Below are positions 22,852-64,000 of a stretch of DNA of 64,000 nucleotides, piece after piece. The position numbers and the translations under genes are program-made. The DNA is taken from assembly GCA_900315075.1 (NCBI GenBank), contig OMXV01000010.1:33285-97284 (forward strand), given 5' to 3'. The notes under the pieces were generated by a model. It was not told the origin of the DNA. It did not search any database and saw only the letters and a list, made by a program, of their open reading frames with translations. The first letter of the stretch is position 1, and every line of letters starts with the position of its first letter. The stretch is from an uncultured Prevotellaceae bacterium. Its GTDB lineage: Bacteria; Bacteroidota; Bacteroidia; Bacteroidales; Bacteroidaceae.

Positions 22852-22940
22852 GTAGGGACATACCCTGTGTATGTCCGCTTTTTTAGATTGTTTGCGAGCA
22901 CAAGTAATATTTTCGGACATACACGGGGTATGTTCCTACG
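22852..22940. repeat. REP-like palindromic element, copy A
   Basis: Two inverted halves, 22852-22877 (GTAGGGACATACC...TGTCCG) and 22914-22940 (CGGACATAC...CCTACG), flank a 36-base spacer. The second half starts 5 bases past the stop codon of the 22946-24676 gene. The same half-element occurs at 30449-30515 and 33704-33731. It fills most of the 318-base gap between this gene and rpsU. Confidence 0.8.
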
Positions 22941-25212: not shown

Positions 25213-26103
25213 ATGAAGACAACATTATTTTTATTGTTTTTGATGGCCTTTTCTTCTATTCCTGGACAGGCACAAACCTCCCAGATAGAATACCGGCCAT
25301 TTGCGCAAGATGGTAAAATCTGGTGGTATCAAGTAGGTGCTATCAAGGAAAATTTCTATAGCAATCGTATTGATGGCGACACGTTGATAGGTGGTAATAG
25401 CTGGAAGAAAGTCTATAATAATGACGGCAAATATTTTATGAATCCTACTGGGGATGCCGGATTAAGTTATTATTACTACGCCGCCGTACGTGATGTGGAC
25501 AAGAAAGTCTATGCCATTGCCAAGGGTAGCAACAGGCCGCGTCTGCTCTATGACTTCAGCCTTAAAAAGGGTGACATCGTTAAGTGTGGGATGGAAGGAA
25601 ACAGTTTTAGCTGCCTTCTTGAAAAAGACGAGCAGCCTGACTCATTATTAGGATTTGAATTTTTAGCATATCTAAAGGTGGAAAGAATCGACACCATCAC
25701 AGATGGTAATCAGGAGTATAGGGCATTCATCCTCACACTTCTCGATGCATACCGTCAGCCTATGTGGGACAGCGAAAGGGAAAAATTTGTAATCGGCAAC
25801 GTCATTTGGATAGAGGGTGTCGGCTCTTATATAGGGCCTTTTTCTCCCTGGATGCAACTTTCATCACATAATAACGTCTCACGAAGCTGTAGGTTTGATA
25901 AAACTTCCATCTTCATTTATCCTGAATTTAATGAATATTACGAAGATTGGGAAGATTGGGCGACAGATTCTGACAACTGCAACAACGACATTATTAATAT
26001 TAATCAGAACGGTTCGTTCCACAATCTTCAAGGCTTTCGGATGACAAGACCGTCAGATAGGGGCATCTACATCCAGAACGGGAAGAAATTCGTAGCCAAA
26101 TAA
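25213..26103 (+). CDS. Secreted protein with GIYxxNGKK-type tail, function unknown
   Basis: A 296-residue exported protein. A signal peptide (MKTTLFLLFLMAFSSIPGQAQ) is followed by an aromatic-rich region (WWYQVG, GLSYYYYAA, NVIWIEGVGS) that resembles uncharacterised Prevotella secreted proteins. It ends LQGFRMTRPSDRGIYIQNGK plus KFVAK, the same short tail as the proteins ending at 30262 and 63543. That tail looks like a shortened T9SS sorting signal, so export by the secretion system encoded at 53-60 kb is possible but unproven. No function is assigned. Confidence 0.7.
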   Translation: MKTTLFLLFLMAFSSIPGQAQTSQIEYRPFAQDGKIWWYQVGAIKENFYSNRIDGDTLIGGNSWKKVYNNDGKYFMNPTGDAGLSYYYYAAVRDVDKKVYAIAKGSNRPRLLYDFSLKKGDIVKCGMEGNSFSCLLEKDEQPDSLLGFEFLAYLKVERIDTITDGNQEYRAFILTLLDAYRQPMWDSEREKFVIGNVIWIEGVGSYIGPFSPWMQLSSHNNVSRSCRFDKTSIFIYPEFNEYYEDWEDWATDSDNCNNDIININQNGSFHNLQGFRMTRPSDRGIYIQNGKKFVAK

Positions 26104-27958: not shown

Positions 27959-30262
27959 ATGAAAAAACTATTATCATTATTATTCATGGCTTTTATCCCG
28001 ATAGTCATGATGGCGTATGATGTAGAGGTGAATGGGATTTACTATAATCTCAACACAAGTGCCAATACGGCAAGTGTGACATCTGAGAACAGTTCTGATT
28101 ACAACTCCTATTCAGGAGATGTTGTGATTCCTGAGACAATCGCATATAATGGGGTGACGTATCAAGTAACAAGTATCGAAGATTATGCTTTCTATCTCTG
28201 CTCCGACTTGACGTCCATTTCCATCCCAAATAACGTTGTAAGCATAGGAGAATGTGCTTTCGACGGTTGCACCAGTCTGCCTGTGGAAGACAATATTATG
28301 TATGCAGGTCCGTATCTTGTGGGGCCTGTTGACAGGGAGCAGACCACCTATACCATCAAAGCAGGTACAAAATATATTGGAACCGGAGCTTTCAGTGGTT
28401 GTACTAACATGACTTCCATTAACATCCCCGAAACTGTAATAAGCATCGGAAAATTCGCTTTTCAAGGATGTTACAATCTGCCTGTGGAAAACAACATTAT
28501 ATATGCTGGTCCGTATCTTGTGGAGGCTGTTGACAAGTCTCAGACCACCTATACTATAAAGGAAGGAACTAAATATATCGGACAACAATCTTTTACGGGT
28601 TGCGACAATTTGGCCTCTATAATTATCCCCAGTAGTGTGACAAGAATCGAAGATTACGCCTTTGAAAATTGCCACAGTTTGTCATCTGTAACCATTTCTG
28701 AGGGCGTGAAAGAAATCGATTATGGTGCCTTTTATTGTTGTTGCAGTCTAACCTCCATCAACATCCCCAGTAGTGTTACACGCATAGAGTACGCCGCTTT
28801 TATGAAGTTGGGCTTGACCTCTATAACAGTGGCTTCTGAAAACACTATTTATGACTCACGGAATAATTGTAATGCAATCATAGAAACTTCATCCAACACA
28901 TTGATAGCAGGATGTGGGAATACCGTCATCCCTGAAAGCGTGACAAGCATTGGGGTTTCTGCTTTTCAGGACTGTACCAACCTTACTTCCATAACTATTC
29001 CCAAAAACGTGACGAAAATCGGATATTTAGCAATTTCTATTGATCCCTGGATTGTTCCTTCCTGCTTTACCACTGTAGTTTGTGAGGCTACCATTCCGCC
29101 AATGTGTGAAGAGAACTCTCCTTTCTCAGACGTCAGTAATGTGACACTGTATGTTCCCGCAGCATCCATCGATGCTTATAAAGCTGCTGATTTTTGGAAG
29201 GACTTTGGAACCATCACAACTCTTTCCACTATTGTGACCGCCAACAGTTACACTCGTGAATACGGTGATGAGAATCCTTCGTTTGAATGGACGGAGGTTG
29301 GCCTACCACTGGACGGCACTCCCACCATCTCCTGCTCAGCCACGAAGACCTCCGCTCCTGACAACTATGACATCGTCATTACAAGAGGCACGGAGACCAA
29401 CACCGATGTGACTTACGTCAATGGCACACTGACCGTTACAAAGGCACCGTTGACCATCACCGCCAACAACTACACCATCAAGGAGGGTGACGCCCTGCCG
29501 GCATTCGACGCTGTCTTTACGGGTCTGAAAAATGGTGAGTCGGAGAGTGTGGTGAACCCAGCCATCACCTGTACCGCCACCGATAGCAATACGCCGGGCA
29601 CATATGACATCAACGTGACCGCCACCTCCGACAACTATGACATCACCATCGTGAAGGGCACACTCACCATCCTGCCCACAGATGTCACCATCACCATCAC
29701 CTCTGCTGGCATGGCCACCTATTGCTCTCCGTATGACCTTGACTTCTCCAATGTGACAGGTCTGAAAGCATACACCATCACAGGCTACGACAGAGCGAGC
29801 CAGAAAGTCTATGCCATGCGTGTCTATGACGTGCCTGCTGGAACAGGTCTTTATTTGGTGGGCAATCAGGGTGACTACACAGTGAATGTCGGCAGTAGCA
29901 GTTCCTACTACATCAACATGCTGGTAGGCACGCTCGCCGAGACATGGATTGAGCCGACCGACGGCGAATACACCAACTTCAGGTTGACGGGCACCAGTCC
30001 TACCAATGCCAGTTTCAAGGCACTGACACAGGGCAGGAACTTCAGTGCGAACAGGGCTTACTTGCAGATTCCCACTGCCGTATATAATGGCACAGCCAAT
30101 GCCGTGGGCATCATCTTCGACGATGAGGCCGATGGCATCGAGAATATCAGCATGGAGGATGCCGGTACCGACTGGTTCACCCTCGACGGACGCAAACTGA
30201 ACGGTAAACCCACCACCAAGGGCATCTATGTGGTCAATGGGCGTAAGGTGGTTATCAAATAA
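27959..30262 (+). CDS. BspA-like leucine-rich-repeat surface protein with MBG domains
   Basis: A 767-residue secreted protein. A signal peptide (about 1-19) is followed by BspA-type LRR_5 repeats from about 55 to 420 (units like TSIxIPxxVxxIGxxAFxxC). Two MBG-like domains follow at about 424-496 and 497-572 (TANSYTREYGDENPSF; TANNYTIKEGDALPAF). A C-terminal region then ends FTLDGRKLNGKPTTKGIYVV plus NGRKVVIK. BspA-family repeats mediate adhesion to host or partner bacteria in other species. The YDSRNNCNAIIET motif is shared with the ectodomain of the kinase at 31234. The tail suggests export by T9SS. A tiny gene begins 10 bases after the stop. Confidence 0.85.
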   Translation: MKKLLSLLFMAFIPIVMMAYDVEVNGIYYNLNTSANTASVTSENSSDYNSYSGDVVIPETIAYNGVTYQVTSIEDYAFYLCSDLTSISIPNNVVSIGECAFDGCTSLPVEDNIMYAGPYLVGPVDREQTTYTIKAGTKYIGTGAFSGCTNMTSINIPETVISIGKFAFQGCYNLPVENNIIYAGPYLVEAVDKSQTTYTIKEGTKYIGQQSFTGCDNLASIIIPSSVTRIEDYAFENCHSLSSVTISEGVKEIDYGAFYCCCSLTSINIPSSVTRIEYAAFMKLGLTSITVASENTIYDSRNNCNAIIETSSNTLIAGCGNTVIPESVTSIGVSAFQDCTNLTSITIPKNVTKIGYLAISIDPWIVPSCFTTVVCEATIPPMCEENSPFSDVSNVTLYVPAASIDAYKAADFWKDFGTITTLSTIVTANSYTREYGDENPSFEWTEVGLPLDGTPTISCSATKTSAPDNYDIVITRGTETNTDVTYVNGTLTVTKAPLTITANNYTIKEGDALPAFDAVFTGLKNGESESVVNPAITCTATDSNTPGTYDINVTATSDNYDITIVKGTLTILPTDVTITITSAGMATYCSPYDLDFSNVTGLKAYTITGYDRASQKVYAMRVYDVPAGTGLYLVGNQGDYTVNVGSSSSYYINMLVGTLAETWIEPTDGEYTNFRLTGTSPTNASFKALTQGRNFSANRAYLQIPTAVYNGTANAVGIIFDDEADGIENISMEDAGTDWFTLDGRKLNGKPTTKGIYVVNGRKVVIK

Positions 30263-30272
30263 AAAATATAAG

Positions 30273-30452
30273 ATGAAGAAATATCAAAAACCAGAGACAG
30301 AGATTGTATGGCTCACAACAGCAGAGACCGTGATGCAGGTGATTGTCACCAGCGGTGGCTCGGGAAATGTGGGCGGTGAAGACAATCCCGATGACCCCGA
30401 CCTCGCCAACCACAATTCAATATGGGATGCATGGGAAGAGGAGGAACCGTAG
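30273..30452 (+). CDS. Small acidic MKK protein following a tail-bearing surface protein
   Basis: A 59-residue protein starting MKKYQKPETEIVWLTTAETV, with a Gly/Ser turn (TSGGSG) and an acidic tail (DNPDDPDL...WEEEEP). It starts 10 bases after the BspA-like gene, so it is probably translated from the same mRNA. A counterpart with the same layout (MKK-x-x-x-P, hydrophobic/acidic stretch, SGxG, acidic Trp-containing tail) is at 63320-63526, and a damaged paralogue follows at 30515-30682. Short proteins of this look are common in Prevotella and Bacteroides and have no known function. Its stop codon TAG lies inside the REP-like element copy B. Confidence 0.65.
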   Translation: MKKYQKPETEIVWLTTAETVMQVIVTSGGSGNVGGEDNPDDPDLANHNSIWDAWEEEEP

Positions 30453-30515
30453 GGACATACCCCGTGTATGTCCGTCACGCAACTATTTCGGACATACATA
30501 AGGAATGCCCCTACG
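30449..30515. repeat. REP-like palindromic element, copy B
   Basis: Inverted halves 30449-30474 (GTAGGGACATACC...TGTCCG) and 30489-30515 (CGGACATAC...CCTACG) with a 14-base spacer. It starts one base before the TAG of the 30273 gene, so the element supplies that stop codon. It ends exactly where the recognisable part of the paralogue at 30515 begins. Confidence 0.8.
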
Positions 30516-30682
30516 CCCCACCGCAAATCCGCCTCGTGAGTGTTGATGTCGGTGATGACCTGTTACAAGGCGTCATCGAGACCAGCGGTGAGCCTGGTCC
30601 CCATGTGGACCCTGACCACCCTGCCGACCCCGATGACCCCGACCTCGTGGGCCGCGGCAACGTCTGGGAAATTGAAGGGTAG
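30515..30682 (+). pseudogene. 5'-damaged paralogue of the small acidic MKK protein
   Basis: The frame reads PQIRLVSVDVGDDLLQGVIE then TSGEPGPHVD, ...PDDPDLVGRGNVWEIEG and TAG. It aligns with the neighbour at 30273 at Pro-x-x-x-x-Val, VIxTSG, DDPDL and the C-terminal Trp/Glu. The MKK start has been replaced by REP-like copy B; only a GTG at 30536 or an ATG far upstream could start it. It is called a pseudogene because the N-terminus that both intact relatives share is missing. Translation from GTG would give 48 residues. Confidence 0.55.
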
Positions 30683-30763
30683 TTAAAGAGGAGTTAGATT
30701 AATTGAAGATTGAAGATTACGCTGCCCTCAACTTCTAACTCCTAATTTCTAACTTGTAATAAA

Positions 30764-30820
30764 TTTGTTTCTTAGATATCTATTTATTCTGAAATGGGGT
30801 GCGCCAGTGCTGGCGCACCC
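30764..30820 (+). terminator. conserved 3' block plus GC hairpin
   Basis: A 28-base block at 30764-30791 is identical to the reverse complement of 63278-63305. It is followed in both places by a GC-rich hairpin; here arms GGGTGCGCCAG (30797-30807) and its complement (30810-30820) then TTT. It most likely ends the BspA-small-protein transcript. Identity of the AT-rich block upstream of the hairpin is more than a terminator needs. Confidence 0.65.
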
Positions 30821-30910
30821 TTTGATGTTAATTTTATTTCTCTAAAACTGTAAAAAACATGAAGGTTTAAAGAATACAGATATTTTATTTCTCTAAATCG
30901 AATGCTTTTA

Positions 30911-33703: not shown

Positions 33704-33731
33704 CGGACATACACGGGGTATGTCCCTACGG
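33704..33731 (-). repeat. REP-like element, copy C (single half)
   Basis: One half-element reading GTAGGGACATACC...TGTCCG on the minus strand. The TAG stop of the 33726-34331 gene is its second to fourth bases. No second inverted half is present. The rest of the gap to the kinase gene (33532-33703) has only a partial ATGCTTCGCAT repeat and AT-rich sequence. Confidence 0.75.
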
Positions 33732-63148: not shown

Positions 63149-63244
63149 GGATTTAGAGGTACGAATATGTTTCTATGTTCTTGCGGCAAAAATTAAGGCG
63201 GACTTCATCTCACCAGGTGGCAACATACGGTTTAATCCCATAAA

Positions 63245-63305
63245 GCGAGGATGCGCACATCACTGTCGCACCCTCGCCAGAATAAATAGATATCTAAGAA
63301 ACAAA
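63245..63305 (-). terminator. conserved 3' block plus GC hairpin, second copy
   Basis: On the minus strand, the 28-base block 63305-63278 is identical to 30764-30791 and is followed by a hairpin with arms GCGAGG-A-TGCG (63245-63255) and CGCA-C-CCTCGC (63267-63277). It lies just after the small MKK gene at 63320. Confidence 0.65.
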
Positions 63306-63542: not shown

Positions 63543-64000
63543 TTATTTGATAACCATTTTCTTTCCATCAACGATATAGATGCCTCTCTTTAATGCCCCG
63601 GTTACCTTGCGTCCCTGTAGGTCGTAGGTACCTTCTGTTGGAAGATCTCCAACCTTAACGCTCAAGATACCATCAGCATCGTTGAAAGTCAGCGAGACAT
63701 TGCTATTAGCGCCATTCTTGTAAGCATCGCCAAGGACGTTGTAGGAGTAGAAATAACCTCGGAACGCTTTCATCTTCGTTGCCCCAGTGCTGTACCAGAA
63801 ATTATTTCCGTTGAGGAACAAGCAATCCTCTGGCACCACTGTCTGTGCCTCGTACGTGCCGATAAATGAATTGTAATCGTAGTACCACTTACCGCCTTGT
63901 TTCCATTTTATTTCATCCAGATCAATACTCAACTCATCCGAAGGTGTGAGGGTCACGCCATCAACTTCGAACGACTCTACCTTCTTGTCAACCTTGATGA
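63543..64000 (-). CDS. Secreted protein with GIYxxNGKK-type tail, N-terminus beyond window
   Basis: The reading frame is open to the window edge, so only the C-terminal 152 residues are seen. The end reads GTYDLQGRKVTGALKRGIYI plus VDGKKMVIK, the same tail as the 27959 BspA-like protein. The preceding part (FWYSTGATKMKAFRGYFYSY, DADGILSVKV) follows the pattern before the tail in that protein. Domain type of the missing N-terminal part is unknown. Confidence 0.75.
   Translation of the reverse strand, partial: IKVDKKVESFEVDGVTLTPSDELSIDLDEIKWKQGGKWYYDYNSFIGTYEAQTVVPEDCLFLNGNNFWYSTGATKMKAFRGYFYSYNVLGDAYKNGANSNVSLTFNDADGILSVKVGDLPTEGTYDLQGRKVTGALKRGIYIVDGKKMVIK

Follow-up and report, generated by a model that had tools for sequence, protein, structure and literature searches.

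In a 64,000-nucleotide stretch of DNA from an uncultured Prevotellaceae bacterium (contig OMXV01000010.1 of assembly GCA_900315075.1; the whole stretch is hereafter the window), two genes for secreted proteins with a similar C-terminal tail are each followed by a gene for a small acidic protein. These small open reading frames (ORFs) belong to one protein family that is under purifying selection, and a domain lying ahead of the tail in the larger, exported protein (the cargo) predicts the presence of a small ORF better than the tail does. The tail itself appears to fit the short C-terminal sorting domain (CTD) known from the type IX secretion system (T9SS). An earlier sequence-only reading of the window had described the two units, with small proteins of 59 and 68 amino acids starting 10 and 16 bases after the tail-bearing cargo genes, and both the coordinates and the lengths were confirmed.

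A Family of Small Acidic Proteins

A profile built from 26 tail-associated small ORFs retrieves 34 members in the genome of the window (G000, hereafter the own genome). Across 149 genomes of the genus, 136 contain a match at E ≤ 0.1, with up to 39 matches per genome (49 for the same genome in a separate search). In a 295-genome sample of the order, which was searched less deeply, eight genomes including the own genome have a match, and many of the matches outside the own genome span only the N-terminal 35–50 positions. The multi-genome searches were generally shallower, the own genome yielding 20 matches there and 34 in the dedicated search. Because the profile derives mostly from neighbors of CTD genes, members in other settings may be under-sampled. 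The 22 loci from a search of named records carry the titles Prevotella (11), Prevotellaceae (9), Bacteroides (1) and Bacteroidaceae (1), and seven of the titles name the rumen, omasum or abomasum. A profile built solely from other genomes matches both small ORFs of the window (E = 9.6e-10 and 5.8e-8), so their likeness to each other is not due to chance.

Among 121 members, the median length is 61 amino acids, the median isoelectric point 4.3 and the mean net charge about −6, with a basic start and an acidic end. No signal peptide is visible in these proteins, whose highest 15-residue mean hydropathy is 1.76 and exceeds 1.6 in only two members. Counted without gaps from a Y-x-x-P motif near the N-terminus, positions 7, 8, 10, 16 and 17 are mainly hydrophobic, and certain residues recur, E at position 13 and S at position 20 in 51 of the 121 members each, L at position 17 in 52 and G at position 19 in 34; loci L151 and L163 are excluded from these position counts. 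Tryptophan occurs within the last 12 residues of 107 of the 121 proteins. The 100 members from the genus agree with this pattern, having a hydrophobic pair at positions 16–17 in 68 cases and a tryptophan within the last 14 residues in 98; all 100 contain YxxP, which also served as the alignment anchor and is hence not independent.

The ratio of nonsynonymous to synonymous substitution (dN/dS) was computed for 53 pairs, and of the 45 shown, 38 have a value no higher than 0.50; these pairs share loci and are not independent. The window's own paralogue pair gives 0.29, and one pair with a dS of only 0.06 gives 1.99. These ratios point to purifying selection on the small reading frames. Searches of Pfam, NCBIfam and PHROGs, made with sets of 26 and 31 members, assigned no family, each listed family matching a single member (best E 0.0088), and a sequence search of the Protein Data Bank (PDB) returned nothing for the small proteins. 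For the domain ahead of the CTD, Pfam gave no recurrent family (eight families with one member each) and the PDB one match at chance level. Both the small protein and the domain are therefore unnamed in all family libraries searched. A literature search over titles and the starts of abstracts of open-licence papers found no description of small ORFs beside CTD genes, and PMC13376575 does not contain the word Prevotella.

The Tail as a T9SS Sorting Signal

With a 28-residue query, the own genome contains at least 100 tail matches, and a tail profile gave 141; not every one of the 100 matches listed is a clean CTD. The tails extend over about 42 residues from a Gly-Ile pair and contain a Tyr/Gly/basic motif, a G-x-Y-I motif and a basic C-terminal motif. 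In 32 tails, picked by hand and cut at Gly-Ile, two G columns and one K column are invariant, with further G, Y and G columns nearly so. Short CTDs on T9SS cargo of Prevotella intermedia have been described (Ye et al., 2025; PMC11969387) and show the same arrangement, with Gly-Ile about 42 residues from the end, a Tyr/Gly/basic motif B, a G-x-Y-I motif D and a basic motif E. The paper deals with cargo, and in its main text the terms "small protein" and "downstream" do not occur. The family model TIGR04183 matches 5 of the 32 picked tails (best E 0.0018). Against the PDB, the tail profile finds C-terminal stretches of 4kca (E = 4.3e-12) and 7jvi (1.2e-6); matches to gingipain and HBP35 stay at E 0.1–0.26. 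SprA was the only T9SS part searched for; SprA_N matches place it in the own genome, and 48 of the 49 genomes covered have it. The identification of the tail with the known short T9SS CTD fits these sequence features.

A different tail, resembling KxLxxGxxYIxRxGxxYxxxGQxVK, occurs in genome G214 (loci L156, L160, L164, L168 and L172), which belongs to a different family of the order. Members of the small-protein family lie 13–220 nt behind it.

Adjacency and Gene Order

In the own genome, 29 of the 34 family members lie directly behind a CTD gene. Seen from the side of the tail, a small ORF follows 29 of the 100 tail matches listed; a small-protein profile from other genomes recovers all 29 of these but no further one within 700 nt of the remaining 71 listed tail genes. 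A DNA pattern for MKKxYxxP, applied without regard to neighbors, has eight matches, seven of which are behind tail genes and one of which is not a family member.

The same association is seen in other genomes, where a CTD gene ends no more than 300 nt upstream at 22 of 29, 29 of 40 and 21 of 22 loci in three sets, or 72 of 91 in total and 68 of 87 distinct loci (four loci of the 22-locus set repeat earlier ones). The CTD profile for this count was trained only on own-genome CTD genes without a small ORF. The profile was applied to 25 of the 29 loci in the first set, and the four others (L184, L185, L199 and L200), which had shown no upstream CTD gene, were counted as misses, and at two others (L201 and L212) the upstream gene looks CTD-like by eye yet falls below the cut-off. 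Control ORFs of at least 150 amino acids, taken from 36 of these or related loci and from the window, gave 5 of 177, one of which is unit 1's own cargo. The sequence-only reading had called for a survey of whether such small ORFs lie behind tail genes more often than expected, and they do, both in the own genome and beyond it. Its description of a fixed gene pair holds in that the pairing is real, selected and far beyond chance; it does not hold for tail genes at large, since only 29 of the 100 listed carry a small ORF.

The gap between cargo and small gene has a median of 24 nt over 79 loci, and at four loci (L196, L237, L276 and L284) the two genes overlap by four bases. A terminator-like hairpin followed by T residues was found after 23 of 87 small ORFs and after none of 79 coding controls. 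On the strength of this spacing and these hairpins, cargo and small gene are likely carried on one transcript.

The family also has a second setting. In two related genomes, G425 and G312, 30 loci drawn from 66 matches (two of them also present in earlier locus sets) were inspected by eye: 24 small genes stand directly before a gene with a lipoprotein-like N-terminus, five after a CTD gene and one before another secreted-looking gene. Five members of family f50, at four loci, likewise precede lipoprotein-like genes. Pfam named none of nine such lipoprotein-like neighbors at E 0.01, and ten others had matches below curated cut-offs only.

Some individual loci depart from these arrangements. At L151 (G214:C10) the small-protein frame continues without a stop into lipoprotein-like sequence, and at L145 (G000:C46:6043) the small ORF has lost its 5' part, its middle now abutting the stop of the CTD gene. 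The member at L250 (G000:C30:31100) lies, by eye, before a gene for a MerR-like regulator, which is not an exported protein. In three genomes (G000:C44:277325, L177 and L213), a gene ending, by eye, in dockerin-like repeats is followed by a family member about 210 nt further on.

A Domain Preceding the CTD

The presence of a small ORF is linked to what precedes the CTD. A domain profile built from other genomes matches, at E < 0.1, 26 of the 29 own-genome CTD genes that carry a small ORF, against 10 of the 65 that do not (p = 5e-12). The contrast remains at E < 0.001, with 22 of 29 against 10 of 65 (p = 2e-8), as it does at E < 1, with 27 of 29 against 15 of 65 (p = 9e-11); six of the 71 genes without a small ORF were dropped as frames of at most 110 amino acids. 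Over 42 chosen genomes of the genus, the number of small genes correlates more closely with that of domains (rho 0.77, partial 0.60) than with the number of CTDs (rho 0.62, partial −0.11). This set leaves out G280 and six genomes outside the genus from a total of 49, and the correlations are inflated because the genomes were picked for low or high numbers of small genes, with no correction for relatedness. Exceptions are G425, G295 and G312, which have many small genes and few domain matches. The domain ahead of the CTD is thus the better predictor of a small ORF, and the CTD alone, tried as a predictor, is weaker in both the gene contrast and the genome correlations.

These data also bear on whether the small protein might be a part of the secretion system. 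Since SprA is present in 13 of 13 genus genomes that lack the family, a T9SS core component is not supported, and CTD-rich genomes with a single small match exist as well: G316 has 95 CTD matches, five domain matches and one small match, and G418 has 53 CTD matches and one small match. The small family is thus probably neither core T9SS machinery nor needed for the T9SS itself.

Matching of Small Protein and Cargo

The pairing extends to subtypes. In 99 distinct pairs, a cargo motif of the F-[WYA]-Y-[SA] type accompanies all 24 YGGV small proteins but just 1 of the remaining 75 (p = 4e-22). Of the 24 YGGV loci, 22 had been found through the small-protein motif and not through the cargo. Similarity matrices of small proteins and cargo correlate with a Mantel r of 0.64, which none of 2000 permutations reaches, and with an r of 0.51 among dissimilar pairs. 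This set omits twelve loci that have no CTD cargo as well as the truncated C46 copy of the own genome, and identical loci were merged. Such lock-step change shows stable pairing and not binding, because neighboring genes are inherited together.

A cytosolic small protein that is acidic, soluble-looking and probably co-transcribed, 3' of cargo genes or 5' of lipoprotein-like ones, could also act as an operon regulator, tuning the neighbor's transcription, mRNA life or translation, for example by matching synthesis to export capacity. For such a role, however, the matching of subtypes to the cargo protein is unexpected, no Pfam domain of any kind was found in the small proteins, and their mean net charge is about −6. 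Regulation of this kind is considered unlikely.

The Shared 3' Block

Both units of the window end in the same 28-base block, TTTGTTTCTTAGATATCTATTTATTCTG, and a GC-rich hairpin, as the sequence-only reading had noted; the block is an exact match and the hairpins have predicted energies of −22.5 and −24.6 kcal/mol. By chance, a 30-base version that allows three mismatches would be expected 0.00 times in the window. One extra copy within three mismatches (having two) occurs in the own genome, again behind a tail gene and small ORF. In unit 1 the block sits behind a degenerate second small-protein copy and not behind the intact small ORF. Of the 281 loci fetched, 11 contain a 22-base core of the block, and these all represent the three own-genome places. 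A general signal is not supported, as the core is in none of the other 270 of 281 loci; other whole genomes were not searched for it. The layout given in the sequence-only reading needs correction on three points: the domain before the tail is the better predictor, the family also stands before lipoprotein-like genes, and the block was seen in the own genome only.

A block common to units with different cargo would be expected if the small gene were a co-inherited passenger, riding in a 3' module of domain, CTD, small ORF and terminator that recombines among surface-protein genes, with no role tied to its neighbor. In several comparisons the small ORFs are indeed more alike than the preceding cargo. 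The low dN/dS in most of the pairs shown, the occurrence of the family before lipoprotein-like genes and the tracking of the domain across the chosen genomes all speak against a passenger, which is regarded as a quite improbable explanation.

Possible Roles of the Small Protein

The simplest reading, and the most likely of those considered although still tentative, is that the small protein may be a dedicated cytosolic companion of its exported neighbor, a proposal in which binding and an effect on export are inferred. It is the simplest because the pairing is fixed, matched and probably co-transcribed, involves two kinds of exported protein, and concerns a partner with no visible signal peptide. 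The small protein would be made together with the cargo. Its N-terminal block, from Y-x-x-P to the L-L-x-G-S-like stretch, might engage a shared cell factor, while the variable, acidic and aromatic part might engage the C-terminal β-type domain of the cognate cargo. In this manner the cargo domain could be kept export-ready until Sec export, after which the cargo would go to the surface via the T9SS or as a lipoprotein. The sequence-only reading had suggested a chaperone, an anchor, a maturation peptide or the precursor of a released peptide. The present data single out none of these, but with neither a signal peptide nor a long hydrophobic segment in view, an anchor becomes less likely.

Several observations weigh against a dedicated companion. 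Five of the 34 members in the own genome lack a CTD gene immediately upstream: by eye, one precedes a MerR-like gene, one starts 209 nt downstream of a dockerin-like gene, one follows an unrelated gene, and two are short stand-alone copies. At 19 of the 91 loci in other genomes, a CTD gene directly upstream is likewise missing. Conversely, ten own-genome CTD genes with the domain have no small gene, nor a remnant of one, within 700 nt behind them. Sec substrates usually get by on general chaperones. Lock-step matching is also expected from the plain co-inheritance of neighbors. In 24 of 28 pairs, picked by small-protein similarity, the small protein is more conserved than the last 200 residues of the cargo, a pattern in keeping with either local recombination or a conserved partner in common. 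Finally, in the 11 members of the distant family f50, the leader has an identity of 0.75 and the rest 0.32 (0.25 when the rest is shuffled), as in peptide precursors.

This last contrast leads to a different explanation, in which the small protein is a peptide precursor. Its YxxP leader would be read by a protein resembling a RiPP (ribosomally synthesized and post-translationally modified peptide) recognition element (RRE) and cut at the L-L-x-G-S-like stretch by shared enzymes encoded elsewhere, and the acidic rest would be released, or put on the surface along with the cargo. In PMC13381572, Bacillota RiPP precursors are described with a conserved N-terminal YxxP...S region and variable C-termini, and RREs are reported to bind a [Y/W]xxPx[L/V/I/F/A] motif. 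The leader-like N-terminus with its preferences for L, G and S at positions 17, 19 and 20 (52, 34 and 51 of 121), the f50 contrast and the likeness to these YxxP leaders keep the precursor explanation alive, and the many copies per genome agree with it. On the other hand, the commonest residue two positions after the proline is threonine (44 of 121), which is not hydrophobic, and among the 100 genus members the leader shows no higher conservation than the remainder (0.28 versus 0.30). In 14 neighborhoods whose ORFs were read, no modification enzyme was noticed, though the neighbors were not scanned for families and RRE proteins were not searched for. C39 exporters are below the cut-off or absent in 15 of 22 genomes rich in small genes, and the cognate matching to cargo is left unexplained. 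A precursor is rated as rather unlikely. An extended form is conceivable in which tens of YxxP-leader precursors per genome, each tied to one surface protein and served by a shared enzyme, would make up a dispersed peptide system whose acidic, tryptophan-bearing product is delivered onto or with the cognate surface protein; this is held to be decidedly unlikely.

The pattern around position 20 also resembles a double-glycine-type leader, which a C39 ABC transporter would cut while exporting the secreted peptide: relative to a cut after position 20, E is at −8 (51 of 121), L at −4 (52), G at −2 (34) and S at −1 (51). C39 matches exceed the cut-off in only 7 of the 22 small-rich genomes, yet do so in 10 of the 20 genus genomes chosen that have one small gene or none. 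The own-genome C39 match is weak and lies in a 237-aa frame, and TIGR04149 matches none of 26 members at E up to 1. With 15 of the 22 small-rich genomes lacking a match over the cut-off, C39 as a general route is largely refuted and barely credible, while a C39 transporter could still act locally, given the matches in seven small-rich genomes.

Cognate partners this small would introduce a step specific to each cargo, ahead of its export or alongside it. The family also gives a handle on many unannotated surface proteins and draws attention to a domain, not described so far, whose presence predicts the partner. Seen across Prevotella-type bacteria, a number of which come from the rumen, the pairing suggests that a helper or peptide family not yet described takes part in building the cell surface.

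Organization of the Two Units in the Window

The cargo of unit 1 is a BspA-type protein, in which LRR_5 and MBG_2 regions are followed by the unnamed C-terminal domain, labeled AYL here for its N-x-L-x-G ... [KR]-A-Y-L motifs, and a short T9SS CTD. It is not one of the two small-ORF-bearing genes without a domain match at E < 1. The cargo proteins end in GRKLNGKPTTKGIYVVNGRKVVIK (unit 1) and GRKVTGALKRGIYIVDGKKMVIK (unit 2). The degenerate second small-protein copy of unit 1, which the sequence-only reading had not reported, is cut off from a family-type start by an inverted-repeat element (Table 1).

Table 1. Features of the two units, in window coordinates.
Feature	Position	Strand	Details
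Unit 1 cargo gene	27959..30262	+	Signal-peptide-like start by eye; LRR_5 (E = 2.3e-57), MBG_2 (E = 1.2e-25)
AYL domain preceding the unit 1 CTD	29660..30094	+	Residues 568–712; limits approximate
Short T9SS CTD, unit 1 (putative)	30134..30259	+	GIENIS...KGIYVVNGRKVVIK, 42 aa; profile E = 1.4e-16; compared with short CTDs in PMC11969387
Small acidic partner protein 1	30273..30452	+	59 aa; starts 10 bases after cargo
Inverted-repeat element separating two small ORFs	30450..30512	.	End approximate
Degenerate second small-protein copy	30512..30682 (about)	+	YAPPQIRLVSV...GNVWEIEG; E = 0.022; family-type start lost
28-base block, unit 1	30764..30791	+	Exact match to unit 2 block
GC hairpin, terminator-like, unit 1	30796..30821	+	−22.5 kcal/mol
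Unit 2 cargo gene	63543..64000	-	5' part beyond window edge; FWYSTG/RGYF-type domain and short CTD
Short T9SS CTD, unit 2 (putative)	63546..63671	-	Found in the tail search
Small acidic partner protein 2	63526-63320	-	68 aa, IGYGGV subtype; starts 16 bases after cargo
28-base block, unit 2	63305-63278	-	Exact
GC hairpin, terminator-like, unit 2	63244..63278	-	−24.6 kcal/mol

The inverted-repeat element, with the end TAGGGACATACCCCGTGTATGTCC, is found in the window at 22853-22938, 30450-30512 and 33705-33728, and its end matches four places. A further short-CTD gene, behind which a small ORF is absent, lies at 25213-26103 on the plus strand. An Rfam search over the window returned tRNAs only.

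Comparison with Known Systems

Several known groups of small or cargo-linked proteins share features with the family. TIGR04149 describes the GG-Bacteroidales precursors, which are small and occur in the Bacteroidales. They have in common with the present family the host group, the size and a G-S/G-G-like site; they differ in that none of the 26 members searched matches the profile and C39 exporters are missing from most small-rich genomes searched.

Type III secretion chaperones are small acidic proteins encoded beside their substrate. Small size, acidity and a location beside the partner are shared, as predicted here from the genes, whereas the partners in this case are T9SS and lipoprotein-like proteins, the length is only about 60 amino acids and there is no family match.

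The YxxP-leader precursors of lasso and LPP RiPPs, as described in PMC13381572, share the N-terminal YxxP block and, with f50, a variable C-terminal part. Unlike those systems, no enzymes were noticed beside the genes in the 14 neighborhoods read, and the fixed partner is a surface protein.

The T9SS itself offers a further parallel. In PMC12618676, T9SS cargo is described as having both a Sec signal and a CTD and as encountering a shuttle protein once translocated, and type B CTD cargo is encoded with PorP/SprF shuttle genes in specific pairs, along with some orphan cargos. PorP/SprF are cell-surface shuttle proteins, whereas the partner described here is acidic, about 60 amino acids long and without a visible signal peptide, and the CTD appears to be of a short, type-A-like form; a type B CTD model was not among the families listed for the 32 tails. 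In both cases a cognate partner gene lies directly downstream of the gene for T9SS cargo, the pairs are specific and some cargos are orphans.

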